Assembly: GCA_002715765.1 (NCBI GenBank)
Contig: PAZY01000022.1
Coordinates: forward strand, 5,795-64,677
Length of the DNA stretch: 58,883 bases
Origin: Rhodobiaceae bacterium
GTDB taxonomy: Bacteria > Pseudomonadota > Alphaproteobacteria > Parvibaculales > Parvibaculaceae
Direction of reading: 5' to 3'
A program made the translations under genes and the position numbers. Below the pieces are notes generated by a model. The model saw only the letters and a list, made by a program, of their open reading frames with translations. It had not been told where the DNA came from and did no database searches. Shown piece after piece: positions 12,439 through 41,500 of the stretch. The first letter of the stretch is position 1. Each line of letters starts with the position of its first letter.

Positions 12439-12462
12439 ATAGTTGATTTGGTGGTCCAAAAT

Positions 12463-14294: not shown

Positions 14295-16769
14295 TTAGAA
14301 CGGAATTTCAATACCGACTTCATTTTCGACCGCCAGCTGTATTGGTGTATGGAGATCAACGTCAATGTTTGGAGCGCTTAGTGTCGCAACGAGGGCATAA
14401 CGTCCGGTACGGCGGCAGTTTTTTGCGGATTGTCGCCACCATCCTATAACTGGCTTAACGCAAACAATGTCGCGCGCCGCCAACGCGACTGCCGGGCCGA
14501 TCCACTCATCGCTATGAAGAGAGCCCGCGGAAACGCTATTGGGGCCAAATTTCCAACCGGAATTATCGCCACCATTCGGACCAGGACCGAGTGGGTCTTC
14601 GCGCTCCTTCGGGTTGGTGCGTTTGAGGAAATCATCTTCGCTCTCTGCGCGTCGCTTGAGATCGAACCGAAGGCCGAAAGACTGGTATCGTTGTGCATCG
14701 ATTGACGCGGATCTTCCAGGATTTGGCTCGACGAAATAGGACAACGTCAATTTGAGCCGCACGTCCTGTTCGCCCAGGCCTTCCAGTAACTCCTTCGGCC
14801 AAGGCAGCTTGTAGAAGTGACAATCGGAGAATTTCTTTTGGCCATCTTCAACCCTGAAGGGAGTAATCTCGTTTTGGGCAATTAGAGCAAGGTGGTTGTT
14901 GGCTGAAGCTATGGCCCTTGTGAAATCCGGCACTCCGTGTCCAAATCGGCGCAAAAACGGATGGCGCGCGGTCATTCCTCCGGCGTCATTCATTTCCTGA
15001 AGCATTTTGGGTGTCCATTCAGCACTGTGAACGATCAGTGCACGGATGGTTTCTGGCCACATTGCCGGATATGCGGCGCTGAGCTGTGTAGACATGCGTG
15101 CACATTGTGCTGCCGCTGCGCTCGTCGCCGCAAACGGGATTAAAGGCTGCGCATCAACGTTTTCACCTGTTGTAAGTAGCGCTAGAGAGTCAAGGCTTAG
15201 CGCTTCAGTACCTGCAGGGCTAACGGCACGGTTACCTGCTTCCATAACCACATCGGGTTTAAACGCAGTGCGGCTTTGTGGCCAAGTAACCGATGTTCGG
15301 GTGAATGGGCTGAGATCGCCAGCAGCGGCCATCGCTGTCCATCCATCGTAACCTGCATCATTGATCTCCGTTTTGTTTGTATATCCCCCGACACTCAGTG
15401 CGTTCCATGCTTGCGAAGGGTCTTCTATCGGGAGTTGATCAGCAGGAAGAATATTGTTGACGTCAATTTCGGACGGCGCATTGCCCGCAGACACGACAAA
15501 GAGCCGTGCGGGCGCGTCATCTTCATCGCCCGCCATTTTGCCGACCGCAGCTTGATCAATCGCGGAACTCCATGTCGTAGCCCGCGCGCCAGATACATTG
15601 TCGTTTGTGACTGCCAAACAGAACACGCGTTTCCGCTCAGGTTTGTTTATCTCCGCTAGCGACGTTGCGGATTGGGTTATAGAGCCGTAGGATTTCGGGT
15701 CGTTGGCAGGAAAACCATGAGGGGGCAGAATCTTTACGGATTCTACTCGATGCTGGAGGGTAATCTCACTTTGATCTTCAAGTCGCGGTGCTAGATCACC
15801 CAGCAACGCGAGACCTGCCATACCTGTACCGTGTCCTGCGTCGTCGGCAGACCCCCAATCAACGTTCACCGTCAAAAGGTCGTCGGTAGAAACAGCCGGT
15901 TCAAGGAGTATGTGCGCTCTGTTCACACCCGTATCCAGCAAGCAAACAGCCGGAGCATCACCTGCGGGCCATGTCACGCGTTCCGCAAGGTTTTCAGTCC
16001 ATTGGGTTTGATCTTCATGATCGGTCTCAAGGAAAAACACAGGACTTGCGCTTGCTCTCCTGAGTTCAGAAATGCCTGCGGTAGCAAAAAGAAGCAACTC
16101 GATAGTTACCCGCGTAGCGCGGATTGGTATGACGGTGCTCTCTGGAAACTTTAGCCAATAATGTTCTTCGGCCACGAGGCAGTTAATGTTCTGAGCGGCG
16201 TCCCGGACCTTGTTCGCCAATTCGGCATAACACCAAACTTCCCACCAAATCTCATCCTGCGGTTCCTGTGGCAGCGTATCTGGGGCGTCTGTCCAAAATG
16301 TTTCCAGCCGCGCACGTCTGATCGCCTCAATCGGCTCAACTTTGTCCTTTTTGGGTGGCTCTCCGCGTGCGTTTACATCGCCATTTAAATATTCTGCCAC
16401 GATGCTTTCCACGACAGGTCGAGCATCATCGGGAACGAACAGTGCGACCCGCACCCCGTTATCTTCAGTCGTTGAAACAGCGCCCGGTCGAACTTTATCT
16501 CGTTTACGTTCTAGGGTGTCCACGGGATTGGTGCCTCGCCGAAGGTCTACTTCTAAGAAGATGCCCTCGGGCCGTTCCAACCGATCATCCTGTGGCCGCG
16601 CTGCGTCCGCTTCTTGAAATGCTGCCTGCATTTCAGCTTGCAGCCTGGCACCGTGTTGTGCTCGAACGCGCGGCGCTGCACCGCCCCCGATGTTTTGTCT
16701 TGAGGCTTGGTAGGGGCGTATTAAAACGCGCGGAGTAATATCGATATGTGGTTTATCAAAATCTGCCAT
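14295..16769 (-). CDS. ietS: subtilisin-like serine protease, IetS-type
   Basis: An 824-residue S8 protease without signal peptide. The triad is visible: Asp279 in AVCLLDTGVNRAH, His313 in DAGHGTGMAG and Ser550 in PFAATSAAAAQ, with oxyanion Asn430 in FVVSAGN. A 270-residue N-terminal region and a 200-residue C-terminal region flank the protease. The gene begins 12 bp after a AAA ATPase gene on the same strand. This ATPase-subtilase pairing is the IetA/IetS arrangement first described as a plasmid stability and incompatibility pair in Agrobacterium and later listed among defence systems. The protease is the toxic half and is presumably held in check by the ATPase. Confidence 0.82.
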   Translation of the reverse strand: MADFDKPHIDITPRVLIRPYQASRQNIGGGAAPRVRAQHGARLQAEMQAAFQEADAARPQDDRLERPEGIFLEVDLRRGTNPVDTLERKRDKVRPGAVSTTEDNGVRVALFVPDDARPVVESIVAEYLNGDVNARGEPPKKDKVEPIEAIRRARLETFWTDAPDTLPQEPQDEIWWEVWCYAELANKVRDAAQNINCLVAEEHYWLKFPESTVIPIRATRVTIELLLFATAGISELRRASASPVFFLETDHEDQTQWTENLAERVTWPAGDAPAVCLLDTGVNRAHILLEPAVSTDDLLTVNVDWGSADDAGHGTGMAGLALLGDLAPRLEDQSEITLQHRVESVKILPPHGFPANDPKSYGSITQSATSLAEINKPERKRVFCLAVTNDNVSGARATTWSSAIDQAAVGKMAGDEDDAPARLFVVSAGNAPSEIDVNNILPADQLPIEDPSQAWNALSVGGYTNKTEINDAGYDGWTAMAAAGDLSPFTRTSVTWPQSRTAFKPDVVMEAGNRAVSPAGTEALSLDSLALLTTGENVDAQPLIPFAATSAAAAQCARMSTQLSAAYPAMWPETIRALIVHSAEWTPKMLQEMNDAGGMTARHPFLRRFGHGVPDFTRAIASANNHLALIAQNEITPFRVEDGQKKFSDCHFYKLPWPKELLEGLGEQDVRLKLTLSYFVEPNPGRSASIDAQRYQSFGLRFDLKRRAESEDDFLKRTNPKEREDPLGPGPNGGDNSGWKFGPNSVSAGSLHSDEWIGPAVALAARDIVCVKPVIGWWRQSAKNCRRTGRYALVATLSAPNIDVDLHTPIQLAVENEVGIEIPF

Positions 16770-16781
16770 GGGTTAGGCGCA

Positions 16782-17780
16782 TTATCTCTCCACCTTTGAG
16801 AAAGCTTCTCGCATCTCTCTCCGGTCATTTAGACGCCTAAGGACATCGTCTGTTCTAATCGTGTCACGTTCATCGAGAATGGCGGTTTTTACTGCATCCT
16901 CTGAAGCCCGCGCGATCTCGGATTGACTGAGGCCTGCCGCCGCTTCGATAATCTTTTTCCATGCCAGCCGTGGTCGCTTCAGAGGTCTGAGGTATTTTTC
17001 AATCAGTGCTCTTATCTGCTCGTCAGAGGGAGATTCGAATTCGATTACAGCATCGAAACGTCGAAGTAGAGCGCGGTCGAGGAGTTCAGGGTGGTTTGTC
17101 GCTCCCAATAGGACACTGTCGGTCGCATTGGGCTGTTCGATGAGCTGTAAGAACGAGTTCAGCACTCGGCGCATTTCTGCAACATCATTGGTTGCTTTTC
17201 GGTGGCTGCCGATTGCATCAAATTCATCGAATAAATAGACGCCGCGACGCTTGAGTGTTTCATCAAAAACCAAACGCAACTTTGAGGCAGTCTCTCCCAT
17301 GAACCTTGTGATCAAGGATTCTAACCTGATCACAAACAAGGGTAGATGCAACTCACCCGCAAGCGCCTCTGCTGTCATCGTTTTGCCAGAGCCCGGCGGT
17401 CCTACAAACAGCACGCATCGGTTTGGCGTTTTACCATGTTCACGGAGCCAATCACGCTTTACTTGCTGGCGGATCAGATCTTCTAGCTTTTCGTTGACTG
17501 ATTCATGTAGAACAACATCTTTTATGCGCAGTTTCGGCTCTTTGAGGTCAATAAGAGATTCAAGATCGCCGCGCGGCCGCGCAAACGGAATAGCAACACC
17601 TACGCCTCGCAATTTTGCTGCTCTCGCTTCATCAACGGCGGTGCGCAGATCTTCCGCCGTGGAACGGTGACCACGCCTTGCTTCGGTGGCGGCAATCTGG
17701 AGCGCGATTGAATAAAATTGCTCGTCGTCTCCTGACACTCGACTCTTGAGCATTGCCAATATCTGCTTTGTGTTTGACAT
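16782..17780 (-). CDS. ietA: AAA ATPase, IetA-type
   Basis: A 332-residue AAA protein: Walker A GPPGSGKT (127-134), Walker B VYLFDEFDA (181-189), sensor 1 LLGATNHPE and the arginine-finger region DRALLRRFDAVIEF. The N-terminal 120 residues are helical and basic. It is the first gene of the ietA-ietS operon. In the described system the ATPase neutralises the partner subtilase. The ATG at 17780 lacks an obvious ribosome binding site. Confidence 0.82.
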   Translation of the reverse strand: MSNTKQILAMLKSRVSGDDEQFYSIALQIAATEARRGHRSTAEDLRTAVDEARAAKLRGVGVAIPFARPRGDLESLIDLKEPKLRIKDVVLHESVNEKLEDLIRQQVKRDWLREHGKTPNRCVLFVGPPGSGKTMTAEALAGELHLPLFVIRLESLITRFMGETASKLRLVFDETLKRRGVYLFDEFDAIGSHRKATNDVAEMRRVLNSFLQLIEQPNATDSVLLGATNHPELLDRALLRRFDAVIEFESPSDEQIRALIEKYLRPLKRPRLAWKKIIEAAAGLSQSEIARASEDAVKTAILDERDTIRTDDVLRRLNDRREMREAFSKVER

Positions 17781-24446: not shown

Positions 24447-25313
24447 ATGAGCAACATCAGATTATCTCGAGGGTTATGCGCAGTGGTGGGAGAAACCCTA
24501 GTTGGTTCGCATGCGACCCTTGACGCACTCTTCCAATCATCAGGAGCTCCAGGAGACCCACCTGATCTTTCACATGGTGCAAAATGGAAAGAATGGCTCT
24601 TTCGAGCTGGCCAAGACGAAAGTGTAGATAGCCTTTCTGTTCTCGGGAACGTTCTCGAGGAGTTTATGGATGTTGTTCCTTCCGACGAGGAAGATCGACA
24701 AGTATGGGAAAACAGTCGAGAGCGCGTCGTTAAAATTCTGGAGGAGAATGGCTTTCGATACTTTCAAGGCGGACGGGTCCTTCCTAACGGAACTTTGCCT
24801 GAAGAAACCATAATCTCTCCTGCTAACTTACAATCCACCTTAAAGCCAGATTCCATCGAAGATCTTCTGAAGATCTTGGTCAACGGATTACGACGGGCAA
24901 TGTATCCACTCGAACACCGGCGTAAGGGATCAATATCGCTTTCCTTCTTATCTGAGTATGACATTCAAGACCTTTTGCACGCACTTCTGAGACCCTGGGT
25001 GTTGGATATTAGGCCAGAAGAGTTCACCCCTAGCTACGCAAGCTTGAGCACTCGGATGGATTTTCTCTTGCCAAAGTATTCACTCGTCATTGAAACGAAA
25101 TTGGTCAGAGACAGAGCGCATGGGAAAAAGATCGGGGACGAACTGATTATCGATATCGACCATTATCGAGTGCACCCTGATTGCTCAAGCTTATGGTGCG
25201 TGATTTATGATCCCAATCACTACATTGAAAACTCAGGCGGTTTGATTGGAGACCTTGAGGGCGAAAGCAAGAATAAAAAGGGTTCAGTGAATTCGAAAGT
25301 CTTCGTCATTTAG
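24447..25313 (+). CDS. PD-(D/E)XK nuclease-domain protein, DpnII/MboI-like
   Basis: 288 residues. The C-terminal domain reads STRMDFLLPKYSLVIETKLV followed by GDELIIDIDHYRVHPDC and WCVIYDPNHYIEN. The RMDFLL Asp plus VIETK (E-x-K) are the PD-(D/E)XK catalytic elements in the arrangement I associate with REase_DpnII-MboI. The N-terminal 180 residues are helical and unassigned. No methyltransferase partner is adjacent, so it is not a classic restriction pair; such domains also occur in stand-alone defence proteins. It begins 1 bp after the serine recombinase stop. Its stop overlaps that of the convergent UvrD remnant. Confidence 0.65.
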   Translation: MSNIRLSRGLCAVVGETLVGSHATLDALFQSSGAPGDPPDLSHGAKWKEWLFRAGQDESVDSLSVLGNVLEEFMDVVPSDEEDRQVWENSRERVVKILEENGFRYFQGGRVLPNGTLPEETIISPANLQSTLKPDSIEDLLKILVNGLRRAMYPLEHRRKGSISLSFLSEYDIQDLLHALLRPWVLDIRPEEFTPSYASLSTRMDFLLPKYSLVIETKLVRDRAHGKKIGDELIIDIDHYRVHPDCSSLWCVIYDPNHYIENSGGLIGDLEGESKNKKGSVNSKVFVI

Positions 25314-25666
25314 CCTAACAACGTTTCCCCTCGTACTGCAGCCGGGGCGTTCTGACCTAGATCGGCCAAATATCTACTGGCTGAAACTCGACGAGATGCA
25401 CCATCTTTCGATGGAATTCCCATCCGTCGCGCTGCCTGAACAAGCAACTCCAAGAACGAACTAATAAGAAACCTCCCAGGAAATTCCTCTGCGGCCTTAC
25501 ACCTTGTGATTGCAACATAGAATAGTCTCCGTTGCTCCTGGATATTAGATTCAGAGAAGTCATTGCCTGGAATAAGCTCCTCCACCTGACTGCAAACAAT
25601 TACAAACTTCGCACTCAGTCCTTTTGAGGCTTGAAGGCTCATCACACGAACATGATTTCGTTTGGC
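25310..25666 (-). pseudogene. 3' remnant of a UvrD/PcrA-type helicase
   Basis: The fragment reads VRVMSLQASKGLSAKFVIVC then EEQRRLFYVAITR-like (IQEQRRLFYVAITRCKAAE), which are helicase motifs V and VI of superfamily 1 proteins. An in-frame stop at 25667-25669 ends the open frame on the N-terminal side, so motifs I-IV are gone. Upstream begins the symporter region. It is probably all that remains of a helicase partner, perhaps of the neighbouring nuclease gene. Confidence 0.7.
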
Positions 25667-25718: not shown

Positions 25719-27179
25719 TTATAATATTCCATCTCTCCTTGGTTTTCCTCGCTTCCTCTCTGCACCGCCCAGGCGGGAAATAGTCCAGTTCACGGACAAA
25801 CTTACAGCGATCCCAATTCCAGCTTCGTTAAAATCCAAACTAAGACCGATGTATTCCCACACAATCGCGGCACCGATTCCGGCCGAAATTGCAAGAATAA
25901 GAGACGTAGAAGTATGTTTCCAACGTAGAGTTTTCACAATGACGGGACCGGCTATCCCGGCGCCTATCTTTGATACTGCTCCGATAGCGATACTAAACAC
26001 GTTACCCGGAACGATGAACGACAGGCCTATCGTTATTATCCCTATAGCCAGAATCACTAAAAATGGGGTGTGTCTCTTTTCTTCAACCGGGGGTGCAAAT
26101 ACCGTAAGTATGTCTCTGTATGCGGACTGAGCGACCGAAACAACGATGCTGTTGGCGGTAGACGCAATAATCGCAAAAACATAAGCAAATGTGAGACCCA
26201 CCAAAATTGGGCTCATGTTTTCCTTAAAGAAAACACTCAGTCCAGTTTCAGCATCTTGAATATCAGGCATAATTCCTCGAAGCATGACACCAAAAAGTGT
26301 CATGCTAATCCAGGTGAACTGCAAGAATCCCATATAGATCCATCGCGCAGCACGAGTTTCTTCTGGGCTGCTTCCGGCGAAATAGCGCGTCACGACTTGC
26401 GGTTGTCCCAAACCAAAACCAAGAGATGCTGATGCGAACCCAGCAAAGAAACCCAGCACACCTAAGAATGATGCACTTGGAGATGGATCTAGAAATTCTG
26501 GACCCGCACCTCGAATATTTTCGACAAAGCTCGACATATCAGCCATCGCAAGCCAAGCGACAGAGCCAATAGCGGCACACGTTCCCACGATGCTTACAAC
26601 CGCTTGAAGCGTATCGGCGTATACTGATCCGCGGAAACCGCCAAGAGCAGAATAGGCAATAATTGTACAGGAGAAGAAGATCAGTGCTGGAAGGTCTGAA
26701 AATTCAAACGCTGTTGACAGGAACTTTTGACCCGCCAGCCATTGTGCCGAAGTATAGAGAGACAGAAAAATAACGAGGACTAGGGCGACCAGGACTTTGA
26801 GTAGCTTTGCAGACGATCCATTTAGGCCGTAAGCCAAAAGTTCAGAAAGTGTCGTGGCGCGGGCGGTTCTTCCTAGTTTATTCAGGCGAGATGGGAACGC
26901 CGACCAAAAGATGAGGTCACCCAGAAACCAAGCTAAGGGCAACATCAGCCACTGGATTCCGCCAATATAGCCGAGACCAACTGCTCCAGTGACAATGAAA
27001 CCGCTGTTGCCCGTTGCCGCAGCGCTTAGGCCCACGAACCATTTATTCAGACTACGTCCTGCTAGATCGCGATCTATTAGGTCCCTTGCACTAAGAACAC
27101 GGCCCACAGCTGCCAGGAAAAGCGTCGCGAGTAGCGATATGCCAAACACGACTCCAATGATGTTTGTTTCAATGTTCAT
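25719..27179 (-). CDS. sodium:solute symporter family (SSS/PutP-like) permease
   Basis: 486 residues with 12-13 hydrophobic segments. Family markers are FVGLSAAATGNSGFIVTGAVGLGY in the first part (GNSGF, Gly/Ser/Ala-rich helix), SALGGFRGSVYADTLQ in the middle and GFGLGQPQVVTRYFAGSS, a signature of PutP-like proteins. These transport proline, pantothenate, betaines and similar solutes with Na+. It lies 148 bp downstream of an EgtD-like methyltransferase on the same strand and probably forms a unit with it. A substrate methylated by the partner, such as a betaine or histidine-betaine-like molecule, is one reading; a sensor or signalling role in this defence-rich island is another. GAGGAG precedes the ATG. 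Confidence 0.85.
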   Translation of the reverse strand: MNIETNIIGVVFGISLLATLFLAAVGRVLSARDLIDRDLAGRSLNKWFVGLSAAATGNSGFIVTGAVGLGYIGGIQWLMLPLAWFLGDLIFWSAFPSRLNKLGRTARATTLSELLAYGLNGSSAKLLKVLVALVLVIFLSLYTSAQWLAGQKFLSTAFEFSDLPALIFFSCTIIAYSALGGFRGSVYADTLQAVVSIVGTCAAIGSVAWLAMADMSSFVENIRGAGPEFLDPSPSASFLGVLGFFAGFASASLGFGLGQPQVVTRYFAGSSPEETRAARWIYMGFLQFTWISMTLFGVMLRGIMPDIQDAETGLSVFFKENMSPILVGLTFAYVFAIIASTANSIVVSVAQSAYRDILTVFAPPVEEKRHTPFLVILAIGIITIGLSFIVPGNVFSIAIGAVSKIGAGIAGPVIVKTLRWKHTSTSLILAISAGIGAAIVWEYIGLSLDFNEAGIGIAVSLSVNWTISRLGGAERKRGKPRRDGIL

Positions 27180-27327
27180 CTTCCATCTCCTCTACCTAGG
27201 ACAACCATCATAGCTTGGGCCGTTCTGTGGCACAGAGAAACGGCATTGATTGGAAACGGCCGCCAGCGTTCGGAAAAAAATGGAAGATAAAGTGGCGCAC
27301 AAACCGCTTTTCGCCATTGAAGAAGCA

Positions 27328-28662
27328 CTACACTCTCTTGAAGACCATTTGCTGATGTAGCGATTGGTTTCGATGCGGCACTGGTTCGAGAACCGGCTCG
27401 AATTCTCGATCTTTAAGAAATTTGTACAATTCAGTTTTTTTGTACCGTTTTGACAATGAAAGCGCGAGAACCTGTTCACGAACTTGTAAACTTAGTTCGA
27501 CTGCGATGGTGCCGGGTATTACCGATGGAACCTGACCACCTACAGTAATTCGTGGAACCAATAGATCACGGCGATGCTCAAAATCAGGAGATACATCGTC
27601 GCTATCTAGGAGACTCCTCACTGGCCCTAAAACAAGATCCTTCACAGCCGCCGCGCTGTAGCTGGCGAGAAGTTTTCTTTGGAATTCCTCGACGTTCTCT
27701 TCATCAATTAGTTCAACATTCAGGACCAATAGGTCGCCAGGCTTAGAAACACCTAGAACCGCAAGAATAAGGTCAGCCTCGTCATTGTTTCCGAAAGTTC
27801 CGCCAAGAACAAAAAATATCCGACGACTATTTTCTTCGCTGGAAAGTATCCAGTGCTTGGCACTCTTCAAATTCTTAAAATCTGCGTGGATTGTGTGGAC
27901 CTCAACACTGTTTGTCAGTTTTTTGCTGCGTAGATAGTTGCGGATCTGGTCGTGGCTTTCGATAAGCATGTAGAAGCTACCGTCGACTAAAACGATGTTG
28001 GGTTTTCTTTGACCGCTTTTTCCTTGCTGCTTTTGTATCGCAGCCATCACTAGAATTTCCTTTTTGGGTGTTCCCGCCCCCAAGAACACCACATCGCAAT
28101 GTTCTTCAGAATCCAACATCGACAGCCATTCTGATGAGTCTAAGAGCTGCTCTAAGGTTTCATGGCAGTAGGAAAATCCCCTGTATTCTGGGTCTTCAAT
28201 TACGTGCTTCCATTGTTGAACCGCATCAATATTCAGGTACATGTAACGCTGATCGACCCGTCCGACTCGCAGCCAATCCTCTTCTTTATCATGGAGGTTT
28301 GGAGCAGGAATGCGGATCACAAGATGCTCGTTGCCTCGCGATTTGGCGCGCTTATGTCGCCCCAGCAATTTTTGTTTATCGGATGGAAGCGCTTCTATAA
28401 ATTCCCCAAAGGAACACTCAATTAGACGCGTACCATTGAAGTTCGTACAATTCAGTGCCTCCACAACTGTATCAAAGAAATTCCTAGCTTCAGGCGTCTT
28501 AGGCTCGCTCCTATGCCACTTCCTAAAATTGTCAGAGAAGTCTTCTCTCTTGGACCTAGCGCTGGCGGGAATGACTTTTTCGTACAAAGCTGCGGGTGTA
28601 GCCGCATTGAACAATGTTTTGAATGCGTCGTACTTCTTGCTCCAATCCTTAACTCCAGTCAT
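27328..28662 (-). CDS. EgtD-like SAM-dependent methyltransferase-domain protein
   Basis: 444 residues. The C-terminal half (about 185-420) carries SAM-methyltransferase motif I as DVVFLGAGTPKKE (190-202), an acidic post-I strand NIVLVDGSFYML (222-233) and FFVLGGTFGN (283-292), the arrangement of the histidine-specific methyltransferase (EgtD) family, which trimethylates His to hercynine. The first 180 residues are extra and unassigned. Genuine EgtD is about 320 residues and neighbours EgtB; no EgtB is here. Placed upstream of an SSS symporter in a defence island, its substrate may be a small amine or a nucleotide-derived signal. An inverted repeat and three CCGGAAA boxes lie upstream. Confidence 0.6.
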   Translation of the reverse strand: MTGVKDWSKKYDAFKTLFNAATPAALYEKVIPASARSKREDFSDNFRKWHRSEPKTPEARNFFDTVVEALNCTNFNGTRLIECSFGEFIEALPSDKQKLLGRHKRAKSRGNEHLVIRIPAPNLHDKEEDWLRVGRVDQRYMYLNIDAVQQWKHVIEDPEYRGFSYCHETLEQLLDSSEWLSMLDSEEHCDVVFLGAGTPKKEILVMAAIQKQQGKSGQRKPNIVLVDGSFYMLIESHDQIRNYLRSKKLTNSVEVHTIHADFKNLKSAKHWILSSEENSRRIFFVLGGTFGNNDEADLILAVLGVSKPGDLLVLNVELIDEENVEEFQRKLLASYSAAAVKDLVLGPVRSLLDSDDVSPDFEHRRDLLVPRITVGGQVPSVIPGTIAVELSLQVREQVLALSLSKRYKKTELYKFLKDREFEPVLEPVPHRNQSLHQQMVFKRV

Positions 28663-28707
28663 CGCATTTTTCCGTAATCAGTTGCCACAGAGCGACAATA
28701 TCATAAA

Positions 28708-28776
28708 CTCTACATATCAATTTGTAGAGGTTTGGAAAGTTTCGGACCGGAAAAAAGTCCGGAAAGAACCGGAAAG
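28708..28776. promoter_or_regulatory. inverted repeat and CCGGAAA triplet upstream of the EgtD-like gene
   Basis: CTCTACA (28708-28714) pairs with TGTAGAG (28723-28729). Three CCGGAAA copies follow, at 28747, 28759 and 28769. They lie 46-114 bp from the methyltransferase start and between it and the small membrane gene on the other strand. Probable control region. Confidence 0.45.
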
Positions 28777-28918
28777 CTCCGATGAGAATGACCAAAGTCC
28801 AATGTGACACTACTTCAAGATCTTCCAGATGACGCCAATTCGGGCCGAACTAGTGGACCTTTTTGCCTATACCATGGCATCAGTTTCCCTTGAACGCTTG
28901 TCAGTTGGAGGAACGGCC

Positions 28919-29191
28919 ATGAATGAAGTATTTTGGTGCGGTGTCGCACTAGTCGGTCTTGTTGGATTTCTCACGCTTGCTGCCGCCGGAAGAAATTTGC
29001 TCGCCGCTCTGTTAGCTGCGATATTTGGTAATGCAATACTACAATGGTTTCAAAACTACCTGCCCGGTGACATTTCTGGAAAAATACCGAACATGTTCAC
29101 CGATTCCGGCTCAATGTCGGGTGATTTTGTATTTGGTCTGGCTTTCGGATTATTCATGCTAACGACGTTGTTCTGGGCAAGCCGCCGCTAA
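28919..29191 (+). CDS. small membrane protein
   Basis: 90 residues from ATG 28919, chosen because GGAGG (28907-28911) lies 7 nt upstream; a longer frame from 28829 has no such site. Two or three hydrophobic segments: FWCGVALVGLVGFLTLAAAG, LLAALLAAIFGNAI and FVFGLAFGLFMLTTLFW. It is divergent from the EgtD-like gene. Family unknown. Small membrane proteins are often effectors or anchors in defence modules, but nothing here proves that. Confidence 0.55.
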   Translation: MNEVFWCGVALVGLVGFLTLAAAGRNLLAALLAAIFGNAILQWFQNYLPGDISGKIPNMFTDSGSMSGDFVFGLAFGLFMLTTLFWASRR

Positions 29192-29823: not shown

Positions 29824-31005
29824 GTGCCAACTGACAATCATCGCGTCTCATATTTTGCGCGTACCAACCATCGCGATCCGGTTCAAACTTTCGGTCTCAA
29901 ACAACGAGACCGGCTCTCGCACCTGTACGTAATCGGCAAAACGGGCGCCGGTAAGACGACGCTTCTGGAAACGCTCTTCACCCAGGACATGGCAGCAGGC
30001 CGCGGTTGCACCCTCATTGATCCTCATGGAGATTTTGTGGAACGGGTTGCCGCCAAAATTCCCGAAGATCGTCAATCGGACGTCATATATTTGGATGTTC
30101 CCAATTCTTCTCAACCATATGGATACAATCCCTTTGCGCATGTTCGCGCAGAACTCCGGCCTCTTGTTGCGTCGGGCATTCTCGATGTTTTCAAGAAGAT
30201 GTGGGACGATGCCTGGGGAGCGCGCATGGAGCATATTTTGCGCAATGCGATCCTGGCGCTCCTTGATCAACCTTCCGCCGCCATGCCTGATATTTTACTC
30301 ATGCTTACGAGCAAGGAATTCAGATACCAGGCGATCCGCAATATCGAAAACGAGCAAGTGAAAAGCTTCTGGCGCGCTGAGTTCCCCAAATATTCCTCCC
30401 GGTATCAGGCTGACGGTATTGCGCCCATTCAGAACAAGGTAGGGGCCTTTTTGGCTGACCCGACGCTTCGCTACATACTGACGCGTGAGGATGGTCAGCT
30501 GCGCATGCGATCAATCATGGATGAGGGGAAGGTCCTGCTAGTGAATCTCTCAAAGGGGAAACTCGGTGAGGACAGTTCCTCTCTGTTGGGCGGTCTTCTC
30601 GTTACTTCACTTGGACTGGCCGCCTTCAGCCGAGCAAACGTTGCCGAAGAATCCCGCAGGCCCTTCTACGTCTATGTTGATGAGTTTCAGAACTTCACTA
30701 CCCAGGCGATAGCCAACATGCTTTCGGAGCTCCGGAAATTTGGTGTCGGCGCCACTCTCGCGAACCAGTACCTGCATCAACTTGATCCGGATATCCGACA
30801 TGCGGTTCTGGGCAACGCAGGTACCCTCATATCATTTCGCCTGGGAGCAGAAGATGCCGACTTCATGGCCCGAGAGTTTGAGCCGGTTTTTGGCCGGATC
30901 GACCTCCTCAACCTCCCCAATCATGACATCTGTCTGAAGTTGATGATTGATGGCACACCCTCAAGACCCTTTAGTGCGACCACTATTCCCCCAGAACAGC
31001 TGTAA
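29824..31005 (+). CDS. VirD4/TraG-like P-loop ATPase
   Basis: 393 residues. Walker A VIGKTGAGKTT (36-46), TLIDPHGDFVERV right after, Walker B FYVYVDEFQNF (about 278-288), and ANQYLHQLDPDIRHAVLGN with TLISFRLG as later motifs. This is the HerA/TraG/VirD4 DNA-pumping ATPase core without N-terminal membrane helices, so it is cytoplasmic. It starts at GTG 29824. It is followed by a small protein and a second, larger ATPase of the same superfamily. No relaxase or type IV pore gene is visible, so it may move DNA with the recombinase or act in defence. Confidence 0.75.
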   Translation: MPTDNHRVSYFARTNHRDPVQTFGLKQRDRLSHLYVIGKTGAGKTTLLETLFTQDMAAGRGCTLIDPHGDFVERVAAKIPEDRQSDVIYLDVPNSSQPYGYNPFAHVRAELRPLVASGILDVFKKMWDDAWGARMEHILRNAILALLDQPSAAMPDILLMLTSKEFRYQAIRNIENEQVKSFWRAEFPKYSSRYQADGIAPIQNKVGAFLADPTLRYILTREDGQLRMRSIMDEGKVLLVNLSKGKLGEDSSSLLGGLLVTSLGLAAFSRANVAEESRRPFYVYVDEFQNFTTQAIANMLSELRKFGVGATLANQYLHQLDPDIRHAVLGNAGTLISFRLGAEDADFMAREFEPVFGRIDLLNLPNHDICLKLMIDGTPSRPFSATTIPPEQL

Positions 31006-31105
31006 TTTTGACGTTCACCGTGTCTCCAAAGCTCAGGTTTCTGCCGTTTTGTCCTTTTCCACACTGAATGTTTCGTATTAGCATGAAGGAGGTCGGCGAA
31101 CGCTC

Positions 31106-31549
31106 ATGAGGGGTACCAAAATGCAGTTGAGACTAAAGCGAGACCAGAAAGCTGGCATGACCGGCAATGTGACCTTCAAGCTCTACTTCATCGTTGATCT
31201 TGATCCGGAAGAGGCGGCAGCTCTCCAGAAATACAAGTTTGGCAAAGACATTGTCTATGAGACCCCAACAGGGGCTGCAGCGTCGGCTGGGCTCCGAGGA
31301 GCAGAAGGTGTTGGCAATATAGGCCGAGGGCTTGTTGCAACCCTTGCCGCCAAAGCGCTCAATCAAATTCTCACCGTGAACGATATGGTCAATGGCAAAG
31401 AGATTGCTTGTAAAGACATTGGCGAGATGATCGCAGCAGAAGAGCAGATCAAAGAGGCCTGCAACGGCCTCTCTCGCATACTCTATGCCTGCCGCCATTT
31501 TGAAGGCGAAGAGATCATTGACGTCGTACCGTTTCAATCTGAGGCATGA
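31106..31549 (+). CDS. hypothetical protein between two ATPases
   Basis: 147 residues from ATG 31106, or 142 from ATG 31121, which has GAGGGG 7 nt upstream; AAGGAGG lies 14 nt before the first. The N-terminal part (TGNVTFKLYFIVDLDPEEAA) looks like a small beta domain, the rest helical. Its stop overlaps the ATG of the next gene (ATGA at 31546), so the pair is translationally coupled. No family is recognised. Confidence 0.6.
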   Translation: MRGTKMQLRLKRDQKAGMTGNVTFKLYFIVDLDPEEAAALQKYKFGKDIVYETPTGAAASAGLRGAEGVGNIGRGLVATLAAKALNQILTVNDMVNGKEIACKDIGEMIAAEEQIKEACNGLSRILYACRHFEGEEIIDVVPFQSEA

Positions 31550-34206
31550 GCGATAATCCTTTTGCAGATCTGTTGGGATCGTTCAAACGGGGTTGGGAAA
31601 ACGCGGGTAAGGTAGAACACCTTTCAACCACACGCGTAAAATCACGCCCATCGTTCTGGAACCCGTTTCTCACCTGGCGTGATGAAGAAGAACGGGAGCT
31701 CTCTGAGCTCTACGAAACCGTCAAAAAGACCTTCGAAGCGTCCCCATTTGCAAGCGAGGAATTCCTCAACGAGACCACAAGCGCAATCGTTGTGGCAACA
31801 TTCACCGAGATCAATTGCGTGCCGTCAAATGACGTCCTCTCAGCAACATCCAATGCAGTCTTGAACCTCCTGAATGATGAGTTCTTTTCTTTTGTCAGCT
31901 TTGAAGGCCAAAATCGACATCAAAACCTGGAAGTTGGTGAAGCTCAAAAGCTGAAACGTGCCCTTGAGCGCAAGCGCCGTTTTCTGAACAATTCTGACCG
32001 ACAGTTTGAAATTGGCTGTCAGACGATCAGAGCCATCCTTTCCGCTCTTCTTGAGTTTTTGCCAGAGAGTTTTCGACGAAGAGAGAATAGCGACGACGAT
32101 ACATCTCTCTTTCAGCTTCATGTTGATCTCATCGACGCTATGGATCGCCCGAGTATCGCTGTGGAAGGCACGCTCATGGAGTTTTTTGGAGGTGAGCTTT
32201 ATGACAATGGCTTGTTTGAGGACTTGCAGGCGCAGTTTGAGCACAATCTCCTCGTTGCTTCCGGACTTGATCCTGAGAACAAAGATGTCCCGCCAAAGCA
32301 AATCATCATGCCAACAGCAGCGAAAGAAAAAACACCTTCAGAACTCGCAAGTACCTACCTCAAAGACACACCGTTTGAAGACTTTTTCGTTCGTCCACTT
32401 CCCCTGACCATTCCAGATCAGGCCCGCTTTGAGCACTGCCACATTTTGGGCGGCACGGGACACGGCAAAACCCAATGCGTGCAACTCTTACTCATTCAAG
32501 ACTTGGCACGCGCTCTTTCTGAACCAATCTCTGTCGTGGTCATCGACAGCCAGGGCGACCTCATCCGCAAGGTCTCATCCAGCATTCTTTTTGACCCAGA
32601 AGACGACGCTTCCCTAGCAGAGCGCTTTATCCTCATCGACCCATCAGACATAGACCATCCCCCAGCACTCAATCTGTTCGATGCAGGGCTCGAGCGGATG
32701 GAGAATTATACCCCTCATCAGCGAGAATTGGCGTTCAATTCCCTTGTCGACATATATGGCCGGTTTTTCGGGGCGCTGCTTGGCGCTGAGCTCACGGCTC
32801 GACAAAGTACGCTCTTCAGGTACCTCGCCCGCCTTATGCTGACAGTGGAGGGGGCGACCATCCACACGTTGATTGAGCTCATGGATGATGTCTCCCCCTT
32901 CAAAGAGCATATCCAGAAACTCGATCCGACAGCTCGGCGCTTCTTTGAGAATGAATTCTCCCGCAAGGGCTTTCATGCAACACGCCAGCAGATCAAGCAG
33001 CGGCTCTATGCGGTTCTTTCCATCCCGACGTTTGATCGATTGTTTTCGGCCCCAAAGTCCAAGATCAGCTTTTTCGACGCCTTCAACAGCGGCAAAATCA
33101 TACTGATCAACACCGCGAAAGATCTGCTCAAAAGTGACGGTACGGCCATCTTTGGACGCTTCATTCTTGCTCTCATTGAGCACGCGGTGATGGAACGCGC
33201 CAATTTAGTGGAGGAGAAGCGCAATCCGGTCTTTCTCTACATGGATGAAGCTCAAGACTATTTCGATGAGACCGTCGAAACATTGCTGGTACAGAGCAGG
33301 AAGTATAATTTTGGCCTCACGCTGGCTCATCAGAACCTCGCTCAGCTCTCTCCTCGTCTTAAAGCCATATTCATGGGCAACACGACGATAAAGATCGCAG
33401 GCGGCGTCTCAGACGCCGATGCGCGTGCCTTGGCGCCCGATATGCACACCGCACCTGACTTCCTCCTCTCTATGAAGAAGCGTCGGCACGTTTCTGACTT
33501 TGCCCTCTCCATTCGCAATCTCACGACGCATGCCGTCAAGGTGGATGTTCCTCTTGGTTTTTTGGAGGATACGGAATCCTTGGAGCCTCAGCAGTATGAG
33601 GCGCTCCTAGCTCTCAATCGGGATCGGGTGGGATACACTCCACAGACCACTGAGCCTGTCCAGGATGCTTCTCCAGCCATGCAATCTGCGTCTAGCCCTC
33701 CGGAGGCCAGAACAGAACATCGAGAGCTGCAAAAACGCATCAAAGTGGCAGCCCAAGAGCGTGGCTTCTCCGCCGTAATCGAGAAGCAGGTTCTCGACGG
33801 GAGGGGCCGTGTGGATGTGGCGTTGGAACGAGATGGGCTTAGAATTGCTTGCGAAGTGTCTGTGACGACAAAAATCGAACATGAGCGTCATAACATCGAA
33901 AAATGCCTGGCTGCCGGTTTCACCCACGTGTGGGTGACTTCGCCCGACAGAGCTCAACTTCAGAAACTAAGAGCGAGCCTACAACTGACACTAGTGCCAG
34001 AAGCCTTGGAACGCGTGTCGTTCCTCTCTGAAGAAGAGCTCATTGCTGAGTTGGATGCGTTCCCCATTAGCACGTCGAGAAGCCAGTCAAAGGTACGTGG
34101 CTATAGCGTGCAGACGATCCAAATCAAACTCAGTGCAGGGAGGTCACAAGACCGCCGTGACCGTCTCACCACAGTGCTTTCCAGTCTCTCCGAAACCGAA
34201 GTGTGA
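31546..34206 (+). CDS. large VirD4-like ATPase with C-terminal PD-(D/E)XK-like domain
   Basis: 886 residues. A 290-residue helical N-terminal region precedes the P-loop core: Walker A GGTGHGKT (302-309), VVVIDSQGDLIRKV, Walker B FLYMDEAQDYFDE and GLTLAHQNLAQL. After a Ser/Pro linker near 700, a C-terminal domain reads RVDVALERDGLRIACEVS with NIEKCLAAGFTHVWV. This is a restriction-nuclease-like fold seen at the end of some conjugative ATPases; the Lys of E-x-K is Ser here, so cleavage is uncertain. It is coupled to the upstream small gene and followed 12 bp later by a headless serine recombinase. The gene set suggests DNA movement by a recombinase element. Confidence 0.7.
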   Translation: MSDNPFADLLGSFKRGWENAGKVEHLSTTRVKSRPSFWNPFLTWRDEEERELSELYETVKKTFEASPFASEEFLNETTSAIVVATFTEINCVPSNDVLSATSNAVLNLLNDEFFSFVSFEGQNRHQNLEVGEAQKLKRALERKRRFLNNSDRQFEIGCQTIRAILSALLEFLPESFRRRENSDDDTSLFQLHVDLIDAMDRPSIAVEGTLMEFFGGELYDNGLFEDLQAQFEHNLLVASGLDPENKDVPPKQIIMPTAAKEKTPSELASTYLKDTPFEDFFVRPLPLTIPDQARFEHCHILGGTGHGKTQCVQLLLIQDLARALSEPISVVVIDSQGDLIRKVSSSILFDPEDDASLAERFILIDPSDIDHPPALNLFDAGLERMENYTPHQRELAFNSLVDIYGRFFGALLGAELTARQSTLFRYLARLMLTVEGATIHTLIELMDDVSPFKEHIQKLDPTARRFFENEFSRKGFHATRQQIKQRLYAVLSIPTFDRLFSAPKSKISFFDAFNSGKIILINTAKDLLKSDGTAIFGRFILALIEHAVMERANLVEEKRNPVFLYMDEAQDYFDETVETLLVQSRKYNFGLTLAHQNLAQLSPRLKAIFMGNTTIKIAGGVSDADARALAPDMHTAPDFLLSMKKRRHVSDFALSIRNLTTHAVKVDVPLGFLEDTESLEPQQYEALLALNRDRVGYTPQTTEPVQDASPAMQSASSPPEARTEHRELQKRIKVAAQERGFSAVIEKQVLDGRGRVDVALERDGLRIACEVSVTTKIEHERHNIEKCLAAGFTHVWVTSPDRAQLQKLRASLQLTLVPEALERVSFLSEEELIAELDAFPISTSRSQSKVRGYSVQTIQIKLSAGRSQDRRDRLTTVLSSLSETEV

Positions 34207-34218
34207 GGAAGGGAACTC

Positions 34219-34860
34219 ATGTCCAAACCAAAGACCGGCCCCACAAGTTTCGGATATCAGCGAAAGGGCGGCATACTCGTCAAAGACCCGCTCGAAGCGC
34301 CCATACGCCACCGGATATTTGAACTTTTCGCCAAACATCAACGGAAGAAGACAGTAGCTGAGATATTGAATGCAGAAGGAGCCAGAACCCGAAATGGTGC
34401 TCACTTCACGGGGCAAACAATCAGTCGCCTACTTCAAGACGAGCAGGTGGTAGGTATCCCAGGCGAAATCGAGGAGCTTGTGCCAAAAGAGCTCTTCGAA
34501 CTCTGCCAGACAATCCTGACAGCTCAGAGTAGAGATGGTGGCGCCAAGCGAAAAGTCGTGCATTTGTTCGCGGGTCTCACCTTTTGCGCCTGCGGTCAGA
34601 AGATGTATGTGCCTTCAAATGCTGAGAAATACATCTGCACTGATTGTCGAACCAAGATACCGACAGATGATTTGGAAGCGATATTCTGGTCCCAATTCTC
34701 GACCTATAAACTACCCGAAACTGAAAAAAACATACACGGCAACACGGAACGAGACTGGACAAAACTTCCTTTTCCAACCAAGAGAGAAATCATTGAATGC
34801 GTGACACAACGCATCGAAATCGGCGACAAATCGATAACATGTTCGCTAGTTATTCTTTAG
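34219..34860 (+). CDS. serine recombinase-like protein lacking the catalytic domain
   Basis: 213 residues corresponding only to the middle of a large serine recombinase: recombinase domain (FGYQRKGGILVKDPLEAP, then KTVAEILNAEGARTRNG, ISRLLQDEQVVGIPGE) and zinc ribbon (GLTFCACGQKMYVPSNAEKY, then ICTDCR). There is no resolvase domain with catalytic Ser, and the preceding DNA is the ATPase gene, so this is a stand-alone DNA-binding protein rather than a fresh truncation. AGGAAGGGAA precedes its ATG. It could assist the full recombinase at 22874 as a directionality factor or competitor. Confidence 0.75.
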   Translation: MSKPKTGPTSFGYQRKGGILVKDPLEAPIRHRIFELFAKHQRKKTVAEILNAEGARTRNGAHFTGQTISRLLQDEQVVGIPGEIEELVPKELFELCQTILTAQSRDGGAKRKVVHLFAGLTFCACGQKMYVPSNAEKYICTDCRTKIPTDDLEAIFWSQFSTYKLPETEKNIHGNTERDWTKLPFPTKREIIECVTQRIEIGDKSITCSLVIL

Positions 34861-35364: not shown

Positions 35365-35598
35365 TCAATGAATATGGTGCTTGAGTACCAAGCATCCGAA
35401 AGACCGGGATAGATCGCCCAGAATCGAGAGACGTTGAGTGTATTCTCGAGAGCTCCTCATTGCTTTCCTGGAGCTCTCGCCCAGCTGCAGTAAATGAGCG
35501 AAAGGCTGGACGCGGTTGAATGCTGAGGTCCTGACCAGAGCCTTAGGCAGCTTTGTTGGCCCTATCTTACTGGCCATTAAGTGGAAACCAGCCTTCAT
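35365..35598 (-). CDS. possible small protein coupled to the STAND NTPase gene
   Basis: A 77-residue frame whose ATG overlaps the stop of the 2026-residue gene in ATGA. The overlap is typical of coupled genes, but the product (basic, no motif) has no recognised family and an inverted repeat lies inside it. Treat as a weak call. Confidence 0.25.
   Translation of the reverse strand: MKAGFHLMASKIGPTKLPKALVRTSAFNRVQPFAHLLQLGESSRKAMRSSREYTQRLSILGDLSRSFGCLVLKHHIH
35447..35479. repeat. 10-bp perfect inverted repeat downstream of the STAND gene
   Basis: CGAGAGCTCC (35447-35456) and GGAGCTCTCG (35470-35479) with a 13-base spacer. No T-run follows on either strand. Apart from this and the weak small frame, 35298-35594 shows nothing else. 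Confidence 0.5.
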
Positions 35599-38500
35599 TT
35601 CTGGGCCGTTTCAACTGGTGAGCCAGTTACGCTAGAAGACGCGACAGAACGCGAACTAGATCTGTTCGGGTCGTCGCGCTGCTCGACATGCCTCCAAGCT
35701 TCATAGACTAAGTTGATGGTCCCATAGGCTGCCTCAAATTCGCGGTGCCCTGTTGCTGAAAGAACGACCTGTTGTCCTTCTCCAAACTTCGAATTTTCGC
35801 CGACAGGCTGAATGAGACCATCTCTCCAAATGATCGTTCGTGCCATCTCCTCACCTTGACCGTTGCAATAGATATGCAATTCAGAAGGGTCTTGGATCCA
35901 ACCTAGCTCTGCAGCTGTAAGCGGGCAAAATACTATAAGCTTGTCGATCGGTGCATACATGTGATGGGGATCAAATACTGCTATCCGCGATGGATTTATG
36001 TTTTCTGCATCATATAGCTCCACCATTCCCTGAATGAAGATGACCCTTGGCAAGTTAGCGATCAGCTCATCGAGGTTTGACGCGGAGTTTCTCCGATTTC
36101 CAGTTGCGCCAAATCGTTCCGCAACTATCGAAGATCTTAGGTCTTTTGACGTTACACTGTACCATTCAGCAAAAACGAACTGATCGACTTCTGTCTCTGA
36201 AATTGTCAAATCGTCGGATACTGATTCAAGCCAGACTTCCTCAGCTTCACCCCAGAGCATATTGGGAGCCTCTGGCAAGGTGAGGTTAGTTGGGCGTTGT
36301 TGAAACGGTGGCAGACCTATAATTCTTGGGTTGGCATGAAGTTCGAAAAGAATGAACGGAATGTCTCTGATCGAAAGATGGCTGGCGTGCCAAAGCTCGC
36401 CCACTATATGCCGCATGGCCCGCAGAACAACCTCAGCCTGTGGCCGTCGGTATGTCAACTTGAGATCGATGCGAGATAGAGCTTGTTCTAAGCGTTTCGA
36501 TGCGGGGTGCCCGAACGCCTCAATGCCGCCCCAAGTCTGCACGAGCTGGCCAACACGGAAACGGATATGACGCTCTGAAAACCCCGACCACTTCGCGATC
36601 CACTTTATCGGTTCTCTCCACCCTTCAGTCCACGCTAGCAGATCGTCGACAATAAGGCCTCGAGTCTGTTGGTCCGATAGAGTGTGGCCGGAAGGGGCCT
36701 CGTCAGATGGGAAGTGGAGATCGTAGAATGGGGGTAAGTCGAGCCATTTTATCGAGACACGCACTTGCCAGACCGATGCCAGAAATATGGCGGCAGCAAT
36801 CACTCCAGCATCTGGATGTCCTGCCAAATTTTGAAGGTGTTGGGAAAACTGCTCACGGATATTATCGTCGTTGTGTGCCTCGATAAGTAGATCCATAGCG
36901 ACCAAAGCGTTCTCATCTTCATCGTCCAGTAGTTGCCATACGACATCCCTAAATAGGGCATCGCTGTCCTGGGTACGAAGTTCGTGCAAGCCAAGGACTG
37001 CTTGATCCAGAATGACTGGAACCCCAAGCGAAATCGCCCATATGTATATCTTGGCCAACAGGTTTCCGTCCGCAGGAACCTCATTGAGATCGGTGACTTC
37101 TCGTCCGACTTGAAAGTCGTGCATAGTTCGAATGTGAGTCTCGAGACAATTCCATAAATCGACCCAATTGATCTTTTCGAACAGAAGCGGGAAAATTGTG
37201 TCAAGTTCCCAGATTATTGATCTCACCCCATAGCGTACTGTTGCAAGTTGTTCGAAAAAATCTCGTCGAGCATCCTCATAGGCATTATCCATCTCCAGCA
37301 GATGTCGAAGCTCGTGCTTTTTCTTAGTACCGTAGCCGGAGGCCCATTCCCATCCCTCTTCGTCGGCTTCCAAGTAAGGTGCAGCAAGGGCGAGGGCGGT
37401 ATCCCGCTCTCCTGCCTTCAGTGCGACGCAAATCATGGCCTTTATCGCGTCGAAGTTTTCTGTGAGTTCTGGTTCGTCTTTGGCGAATATCTTGACCTCT
37501 TCCCACGGCGAGTTTGCCAGAACACGAGAAAGCGCCCGTTCGAGTCCCCAAGTGATGCCGGATGTTCGATAAGTCTTCTCGTCTTTCTTTGCAAAGTAGG
37601 CGCGCTCGTCGGCTATTGCGCCCTGAACGTCGGATAGTTTTGTCAATCGGTGATAGGATTTGTTGTCTGGAATTGTTTCTGATTCAATAAGGCTGATGTC
37701 ACTCCACCGTAGCTTTTCTTCTCGTGCACGCTGTCCATGATCCTTGGCGGATGCCGCTTCCTCCAAAACTCCGAGGAGAGAAAGACGGACTTCCGGGCGT
37801 GATCGTTCTGCTATCGCAGTAGCCGCTGCAGCTTCAAGCGCCTCTACTTCTGAGGGTTTCGCTGACGCAATTAGATCTGTAAGGAACTGCGCAGTAGATC
37901 CTGTGCTGTTGTAAGGTTCGGTGTACCAGGGCAGACATAGATGCGACCAAGTTGTGAGGATTGAACTCAAGGGTATCGTTTTCCGAACAATTAATCCCCG
38001 GAGCGCAGAGTCAACGATGCCATCCCAACTTGTTACACCTGTAGACGCGGCCCAAGCTCCGCTGTTCCAGGTAGAATTGGCGTCACATGCTGCCACCTCG
38101 AACAGTACTTGGCGCACAATTCTCAGGCCCATGTCAGACCCTTCGGAGTTTTGGAGCCCGTCAATCAACTTAAGAACTACGTTAGCGCGCTCGACACGGT
38201 GGTTAGGGTCTTGATTGTTTGCTTTGCCTAGAAGTGCATTCCAGATTTCATACTGTCCGTCTTTTTTAGCGGGCAGATAGACGGCTAGTGCCTCACGCCG
38301 TAAGTCATTCAGAATTTGACCGGCTCGGGCTGTATCACCAATCTGAGCGAATGCTATAGCAATTGATGTAGCTTGTTCTGCTCGTTCCCTTGGGTCACTC
38401 GCATCGAGCGCTTCGCATGCATCTTCCAGCCTTTTGCGAGCGTCAGAAACGTCGCCGTCTAAGGCGAATGTTCTGAGCGAAACTTGTGTTCGGAAATGTG

Positions 38501-41500
38501 GCCACCAACGAAACCGTGCTTGATCACGCGCAATCAAGCCATCTGTAATTTCAGCAACGAAGTTTGATTCGACGCTGGTAATACCTACAAGCGTAAATAT
38601 AACGTCCAGAATGACGGATGAGAGCGAATTGAGATGGTAGTCACTGAAATGATCTTCACCATCGATTGTCCGTTCCGTCGCGAGGAAATTAATTGCTGCA
38701 TGTATGACGCGTTCGACAGTATCTTTGGTTGGAGGATTGTTCTTGCGTGCTTCTCCGATCTCTCTAGCAATCGCGACCAGATGGTGCTGGACTCCTTTCA
38801 AGAGTCGCTTCTTTGGCAAGCCGAGATCGGGGATTGGTTCGTCGAGAGCGACGCATAGAGCCACGCCTTTTGCCAGATGTTCACAAGCAGAACTAAGGAC
38901 TTCATTGTCATAGTCCCGATCAATGGCACCTAGACCTTGTGGACGTGAGTAACTCAGGAATTTCTGCGCGAGATCTTTGTGTCCCGCTCGCAATGCACGA
39001 CGCGCGGCGTCGAGCAGCCACGAAATATGTAACTTGCCGACGGACGGGTGATCGGCGGATTTTTTGAGAAGACTGAGCGCGCGATTGTTGTCGCCGGTTG
39101 TGGAAAATGCTGCTTCAAGCAGGATGAGTGGCTCTTGGTCGTAGGCTACGCCCCACGTCTTGATGAGTTCCCACAGATCACTAGAAGGGTCTGCAGAAGC
39201 GTATGCTCGCGCAATTTGAAACTTGAGCCTTTCGGCAACATCTTCGGGCTCAGGATCAAGTTCTGATCTGGAGGACGGAAGATTGGAAAAGACCTCGGAA
39301 ACAAGGCGCTTAAGCTGAGCCTCGTCCATAAATATTATCGCTCGCTCTGCCCAAGGAAGTGAAGCTTGTCGTATTGCATCCCTTACGGAGACGCCATATT
39401 CGTTTGAGGGAAGAAAAGGGCTGTGATTCTCGAAGACTCTGCGTGCTTCCTCAACCTTGCCATCGTCGAGAAGCGCATCGACCACTATCCATTGCCGTCC
39501 CTCCTCGTAACTGTCTGAAAGGGTATCCGATGCGCCTTGCAGATCTCCGATTGCTACATAAGCATCGGGAAGAGATGGGGCGCCTTCCATAATGTCGCTG
39601 CGTCGATCTACTTCGTCGCGAGCTAGAAGCAAGTCGAAGAGCTTTGTGGGCTCAGGGTTGATGCTCAGTGCGTGGAAGGCATCGTTGATATCGCCGCAAA
39701 CGGCGCTGACGGACCGGCCTGTGCAATACTGCTCCACAAAATACTCGCGGTTGCCGAGCTGCAGTGCTTCCTCGTAAGCTTCAGCTTTGTAAAGGTAGCG
39801 AAATTCGAGCCAACGCTGCGGACTGAACTCCGAAGCTTCGCGCGTTAGGCTGGAAAGTCGTCTGTAGGTGATATCGGGCGAATAGTCTGGATCGACCATT
39901 CCGAATTTGTCTACCGGCTTAGTTTGAATGAAGAGGCGGAAGCTATTGTGAAACGTTGTCCAGCCAATATCGGTGATGCTCAACAGATGAGAGACCTTCG
40001 CCAAGGTTCTTTCTACGGCTTCATCCGATGTTGCCGATGCAAGAAGTCGCGGCTCTATTGGCCCTTCAGCATACCCTACGAGAGCAAGAACCCTTTTGAC
40101 CTTACCGCTATCCAAGAGGTTTTCTATCTCTCGCCAAGCTGCCGTATAGATATCTTCTAAGTCTCCATCAAACCCATATTGTCCGCTCAACAAATCGTCG
40201 CGCATTTGTCTATCGGAGGAAATTAGTCTTTGGATCAGGTACCGGGTAACCAGGGGATGGCCATCGGTGACAGAGTAAACCTGTGAAGGAGCAATATCGT
40301 TTGGTAGCCCAAATTGTACGGCAACTCTTGCGACCGCTTCTTCAGAAAGTGGCGTGATTGCTACCTGGCGGTCTGGTTTTGCCGCTTCTTCGCGGACTGA
40401 TGGTGGTAGACCATCGAGATCCAGGCGCTGTGTTCCCAGAACAAAAAGGATGCCTTCTGGGATTGATTGGGGAAGTGGTAAAACACCTAGCATTGACCGA
40501 CTGGGTCGTTCTTCCCGCGGAATGTGATCAAGGCCGTCAACTACGATTATGTAGCGCGTCCCATCATTCGTGTAGTGTTGCGCAGCTTGCGAGAGAAGAT
40601 CTGCAAAAATTTGTTGCAGACCATGCAGCGTTCGATCCTTTATCCGAAGTGGTTCGATACCGGTTGCTGCGAGCCCCGCATTGATGTCTTCATAAAAACT
40701 CTCAGCTTCACCTCGTCCCTGTCCTTGAGTGTTTCCCGGCACGAAAGCGAGGTATCGAATTATTCTGGTATTTGGCCCGTCGCGAAATACGGTTTGTAGA
40801 AGAGTTGACTTACCTGTACCGGGTGATCCAACTAGGCTTAAGTACCCGGAGGTATGTGTCTTTATTGCATTGCTAAGCTTAGATTCGGTGATGTCGTTCT
40901 TCTGGACGTACTCGCCAACGGGAAAAGTGTGAGAGAATCTCATTGTGAACGGATCTCGCCAGCCAAGCGCTGTGAGCAATTCCAATCTTGACCAACGGTC
41001 TTGCTCTGGAGTGTCAACGATTAGTGCAGGGATGGCTCTCGCAACTTCCTCGATTTCATCATCGAGTTTGGCGTCTTCTGGAGTGGAGAATGTAGATGAC
41101 GCCTCTTCCCCCAGAATCAGATCGAAATTTTTCCAAAAGGTTTCGAAAGCATGATCAGTCAGACCTGTTGCTAACACGAGCTGATTGATAACTGGAGCCC
41201 ACTTCGTTGAGCGCCACTCTGCCAACGTGCGGTTTCGATTTATCTGTTTCTCATCGATAAATGCTTTAGTTGTCGAAAGGGTGGAACCCTTAATCAAGCG
41301 GTCGTTAATAGACGGTGGATCTACAGATAGAAATCGAATGACGATTGGAGACCCAGGGAATTGCATCTGAAGAGTCATAAAAGACTGCGCTAAGTCTGCG
41401 ATGTATGATGCTTTCCCAAGTAGCGATCCAATAAGCCCGATTGGTTCCGGAGTTGCTGAATTCTTGAACTGATGCCCGACGATTGTGCCCTCTAGACCTA

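Follow-up and report, generated by a model that had tools for sequence, protein, structure and literature searches.

A divergent EgtD-type methyltransferase gene next to a divergent sodium/solute symporter gene in a defence-rich dusA island: a possible amino-acid betaine module

Introduction

The characterised bacterial members of the EgtD methyltransferase family (PF10017; PDB 4pim and 7scf) act on histidine. In the Mycobacterium tuberculosis enzyme, Tyr56, Tyr206 and Ser284 contact the carboxylate of histidine and Asn166 contacts its α-amine, with Glu282 located in the side-chain (imidazole) site (PMC8593015). The sodium/solute symporter (SSS) family comprises PutP, for which D55 is crucial (PMC7918813), as well as the EctI importers of ectoine gene clusters, which take up hydroxyectoine, glycine betaine and proline betaine (PMC13342039). 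Genomic islands specific for dusA have an integrase beside dusA, sit at the 5' end of this gene, are bordered by imperfect direct repeats and bring in variable cargo (PMC4482086).

Here, we analyse a stretch of 58,883 nucleotides from a Rhodobiaceae bacterium (assembly GCA_002715765.1, contig PAZY01000022.1, positions 5,795 to 64,677 of the forward strand; hereafter, the window), in which a gene for an EgtD-like methyltransferase (MT) adjoins a gene for a symporter (SSS). Each protein is a divergent representative of a known family, and their combination is undescribed in the libraries and papers searched; no literature precedent for a symporter-EgtD pair was found. An earlier note on the same DNA knew of no defence or transport system with such a pair.

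Results

Both genes are real, intact long ORFs on the minus strand, as seen from the ORF listing. MT (27328-28662, minus strand) encodes a divergent EgtD-type, SAM-dependent methyltransferase of 444 residues, and SSS (25719-27179, minus strand), which lies downstream of it across a gap of 148 bp, encodes a divergent Na+/solute symporter of 486 residues. The adjacency of a symporter and a 444-residue methyltransferase on one strand, from which the earlier note had started, is therefore borne out by both ORFs and by their Pfam domains, whose matches are well above what chance would give. MT and SSS may be co-transcribed; no strong terminator was found between them, and their GC3 values are similar. 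A possible sigma-70-like promoter (TCTACA-17-TATGAT) lies upstream of MT at 28700-28728 on the minus strand, which by itself is no evidence, since the region holds seven such sites against 4.7 expected by chance.

The family assignment of MT rests on several comparisons. Methyltransf_33 (PF10017) matches residues 149-322 (E = 7.3e-8) with 32.3 bits, above the Pfam cut-off of 23. An hhalign comparison with an EgtD profile built from eight EgtD-family proteins aligned residues 139-427 to nearly the whole of EgtD (E = 4.7e-5, probability 68%), and weak single-sequence matches to canonical EgtDs, independent of the profile comparison, cover residues 278-427. MT is about 20% identical to EgtD and shares with it a Rossmann-type SAM-binding core, a VD-S motif and a GxTxGN motif with the amine-binding Asn. 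The profile and family alignments thus place the EgtD-like part (residues 139-427) at 27382-28248 on the minus strand. The earlier description of an EgtD-type half stands on the Pfam match and the hhalign homology, whereas the accompanying 180-residue N-terminus of no known family has to be shortened to about 138 residues because the EgtD homology already starts at residue 139.

This extra N-terminal region (residues 1-138; 28249-28662, minus strand), by which MT differs from EgtD, had no match in Pfam, PADLOC, NCBIfam, PHROGs or the PDB and is possibly mostly helical. AlphaFold without homologues gave a model of MT with a pLDDT of 35, and Foldseek matches of such models are meaningless; a single-sequence model of residues 1-149 was likewise too poor for use (pLDDT 48.8).

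We then compared the substrate pocket of EgtD with MT, mapping residues through PDB chain alignments and family alignments. All four contacts to the amino-acid backbone, Tyr56, Asn166, Tyr206 and Ser284, align with identical residues in MT (Y160, N292, Y335 and S404), the alignment being weak towards the C-terminus, and Tyr39 corresponds to Y142, a further candidate pocket residue. The imidazole contact Glu282 is not conserved and aligns, again in a weak stretch, with Ser402. Given the weak C-terminal alignment (probability 68%), the assignments are tentative, above all those of Y335, S402 and S404; the mapping is firmer in its N-terminal part and tentative beyond residue 323. The engineered EgtD in 4pip_A, which we take to be the M252V/E282A mutant that accepts tryptophan, differs from the wild type at this same Glu282 and at Met252. 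MT thus appears to keep the EgtD contacts to the amino-acid backbone, with a candidate carboxylate-binding Tyr/Tyr/Ser set, and would be an amino-acid α-N-methyltransferase with altered side-chain specificity. The pocket comparison predicts that it accepts an amino acid other than histidine.

The N-terminal region without library matches could also be a targeting domain. MT would in that case modify a peptide, a protein N-terminus or another macromolecule recognised by this region, and SSS would be incidental. We consider such a role very unlikely, as the retention of the EgtD backbone contacts argues for a free amino acid as substrate.

Another alternative is that the genome has in MT a second EgtD, which forms hercynine in the ordinary way and feeds ergothioneine synthesis. 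It belongs to a Pfam family of histidine-specific methyltransferases, and egtB is present in the genome: on another contig (C42), egtB (577 bits) immediately precedes a canonical egtD (392 bits). Against the NCBIfam EgtD equivalog TIGR03438, however, MT scores 26.2 bits, far under the cut-off of 290.9, and it lacks Glu282. Moreover, it is the canonical EgtD that adjoins EgtB, so that histidine methylation is covered and MT is not needed for ergothioneine. Taken together, a hercynine-forming MT is extremely improbable. The earlier note had reached a similar view on the grounds that EgtB is absent. This is true within the window, where MT is not beside egtB, but not genome-wide; ergothioneine synthesis by MT is indeed unlikely, for a different reason, namely the separate egtB-egtD pair and the non-conserved Glu282.

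Judged by its length and hydropathy, SSS is a complete protein, with about 11 hydrophobic segments in a simple hydropathy scan, and the SSF domain (PF00474) matches nearly at full length (residues 39-424, 120 bits, E = 1.6e-34). Its description as PutP-like holds for the family, while the kinship to PutP itself is loose: SSS is 21.6% identical to E. coli PutP, compared with 25-28% to another SSS clade, and scores 126.7 bits against the PutP model TIGR02121, under its cut-off of 515.5. Equivalents of PutP A53, S57, G58, S340 and T341 are kept, the last two as S340 and T341 in TM8. In contrast, PutP D55 is replaced by Gly57, W59 by Phe61, W244 by Phe and Y248 by Phe255. In PutP, A53, S340 and T341 are part of the Na2 site, S340 and T341 being its hydroxyl residues in TM8, and the conserved residues suggest that SSS is Na+-coupled.

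In a maximum-likelihood tree that was built without a genuine EctI from Hyphomonas, SSS joined an alphaproteobacterial clade with the TM1 motif GLSAVATNNSG (support 84/81, which is moderate) on an extremely long branch of 9.97 changes per site. One clade member (L089), 31% identical to SSS, is encoded directly after ectA-ectB-ectC-ectD and an aspartate kinase gene in an EctI-like operon of an alphaproteobacterium (L089:2621-9378). SSS resembles EctI-type transporters in its family, in this near relative behind ectABCD-ask and in a similar TM1 motif (GLSAxATxNSG), and differs from them by its very long branch, by an identity of only 25-32% and by having no adjacent ect genes. Searches over 61 relatives and 308 alphaproteobacterial genomes yielded no relative more than about 32% identical, and no homologue was found in viral contigs. 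The relative in the ectoine operon and the substrates of EctI make a zwitterionic, betaine-like substrate of SSS plausible and no more than that, as the long branch and the moderate support render a transfer of substrate from the relatives unsafe.

MT and SSS are located in an island of about 37.7 kb (about 7854-45591) that is integrated at dusA (45536-46525, plus strand; Dus, E = 4.1e-83), the gene for a tRNA-dihydrouridine synthase. Its left end is a fragment of the dusA 5' end (7854-7885, plus strand), an att-like repeat that matches the dusA 5' region of congeners, and its right end is a second such repeat at the 5' end of dusA (45560-45591, plus strand); the two repeats are identical at 26 of 32 bases. 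A tyrosine integrase gene adjoining dusA (44357-45478, minus strand; Phage_integrase, E = 9.1e-29) is likely dusA-specific. In 6/6 congeners, the flanks (1865-7768 and 45536-52193) are collinear and enclose 7-14 kb in place of the ~38 kb seen here. The mean GC content of the island is 50.5% compared with 56% in the flanks, with 46% for MT and 48.5% for SSS. The locus thus shares with described dusA-specific islands the neighbouring integrase, the position at the dusA 5' end, the imperfect repeats and the variable cargo; it differs in that its cargo is unusually defence-rich.

The designation of this region as a defence island, made in the earlier note, is well founded on its named cargo. The protein genes of a type III-A retron, a reverse transcriptase and a PRTase effector, are found at 9831-12483 on the minus strand (PADLOC RT_III-A, E = 4e-168; PRTase_III-A, E = 2.6e-114). 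No retron RNA was matched by Rfam anywhere in the window. IetAS, an AAA+ ATPase with a subtilisin-like protease (subtilase), follows at 14295-17780 on the minus strand (IetA, E = 5.4e-72; IetS, E = 1.6e-35). A DpnII/MboI-type nuclease-domain protein is encoded at 24447-25313 on the plus strand (PF18742, E = 5.4e-39; PADLOC Aga_Helical-REase, E = 8.4e-26), and an Avs1-like STAND NTPase of 2026 aa at 35595-41675 on the minus strand (PADLOC Avs1b, E = 9.7e-18, with AAA/NACHT-type matches). A RES-domain protein next to the retron (12574-13413, plus strand) and a PIN-domain protein are further cargo.

Some further details of the cargo are recorded here as side observations. The retron effector is a PRTase-CE with a winged helix. 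RES-domain proteins frequently serve as the toxin in Xre-RES toxin-antitoxin pairs. The weak Avs1b similarity of the STAND NTPase is limited to its ATPase region and leaves its long remainder unassigned. Genes for two VirD4/HerA-like ATPases, separated by a small unassigned gene (31106-31549), occupy 29824-34206; a truncated serine recombinase gene follows (34219-34860).

The surroundings raise the possibility that MT and SSS form an anti-phage module, in which a methylated small molecule, made by MT on infection or sensed by its N-terminal region, would act together with SSS as a membrane effector or substrate supplier; as an effector, SSS would let in solute or Na+. The neighbouring systems, of established or candidate defence function (retron III-A, IetAS, Avs1-like STAND, DpnII/MboI-type nuclease), and the fact that each of the six congeners has 7-14 kb at this site in place of the ~38-kb stretch are consistent with such a function, and the extreme divergence of SSS might fit a changed one. 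However, none of the defence models of PADLOC, Pfam and NCBIfam matched MT or SSS, no precedent was found in the literature, and dusA islands carry metabolic and transport cargo too (PMC4482086). We therefore regard an anti-phage role as unlikely. The more specific version, a new type of anti-phage module with SSS as a membrane effector that is fed or gated by a methylated amino-acid product of the EgtD-derived MT, is decidedly so. For the earlier idea of an ion flux coupled to a modified small-molecule signal, the island context is the one argument. If phage defence were true, immunity would work through a small molecule or an ion flux, for which the models searched offer no precedent.

Next, we asked whether the pair recurs. 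Sensitive whole-genome searches for MT, which covered about 785 proteobacterial genomes in partly overlapping sets of 385 alphaproteobacteria, 369 gammaproteobacteria and 40 members of the same order, recovered only MT and, with weak similarity, canonical EgtDs; tblastn found no homologue in plasmids and phages. Pattern scanning, applied to 85,000 genomes and to viral contigs, found none either; such scans need a nearly exact short peptide and so exclude only close relatives, and the choice of pattern was in some scans steered by artificial variant alignments that have no evolutionary meaning. The weak PF10017 matches inspected lay outside the MT family; judged by their sequences, they were lone EgtD-like genes or MidA-like and other methyltransferases. 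No EgtD-like gene occurred near five of the best SSS matches whose neighbourhoods were read. Lack of conservation, which the earlier note had named as a refutation of the pair, is thus what these searches indicate within their reach: the genomes, plasmids, phages and viral contigs searched yielded no further MT-SSS pair, so that the case for functional coupling is the adjacency seen in a single genome. As no MT homologue was found at all, this result does not disprove conservation of the pair.

These results lend some weight to the view that MT and SSS are unrelated cargo brought next to each other by recombination within the island, MT acting on a metabolite of its own and SSS being a scavenging transporter. 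Besides the lack of a conserved pairing in any searched set and of an MT gene near the five SSS relatives, this view is favoured by the immediate surroundings. Downstream of SSS, a 5'-truncated remnant of a UvrD-like helicase gene (25310-25645, minus strand; UvrD_C, E = 4.3e-9, residues 2-51) suggests that most of a helicase gene has been lost; together with the 148-bp gap, it shows that this spot has been rearranged. The shared strand, the similar base composition and the lack of a strong terminator between the genes speak against mere coincidence, and in the absence of MT homologues the missing pairing is not really a test. We rate independent cargo almost level with, and just behind, the cargo module preferred below, and ahead of the anti-phage module. 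As a side observation, the helicase remnant ends beside the gene for the DpnII/MboI-type nuclease.

Discussion

The explanation that we prefer, with a probability of about 0.36, is that MT and SSS constitute a metabolic or stress cargo module made up of a non-histidine amino-acid α-N-methyltransferase and a Na+-coupled importer. In this model, MT would use SAM to α-N-methylate a free amino acid, or an amino-acid-like metabolite, other than histidine, giving an N-methylated amino acid or a betaine. SSS would import that amino acid or a betaine-type compatible solute with Na+, and the two would together serve as stress or metabolic cargo of the defence-rich dusA island by supplying an osmolyte or a protective betaine. 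Both the functional coupling of MT and SSS and the identity of the solute are put forward here as what the gene order and the family relationships suggest.

This model draws on the EgtD homology of MT, which is significant in the catalytic half and extends weakly through the substrate lobe. The earlier idea of import and methylation of a betaine-type osmolyte receives indirect support from the backbone pocket, which appears to be kept, and from the SSS relative in an ectoine operon. On the other hand, the 148-bp gap and the truncated helicase gene show that genes have been gained and lost here, and in such regions genes often become neighbours by chance. If the pair does cooperate, it would represent a module for synthesis and uptake of amino-acid betaines carried as mobile cargo, and MT would add to the EgtD family a branch with a new substrate.

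A small gene on the other side of MT (28829-29191, plus strand), oriented divergently from it, encodes a protein with three predicted hydrophobic segments, which could be a member of the same module or unrelated.
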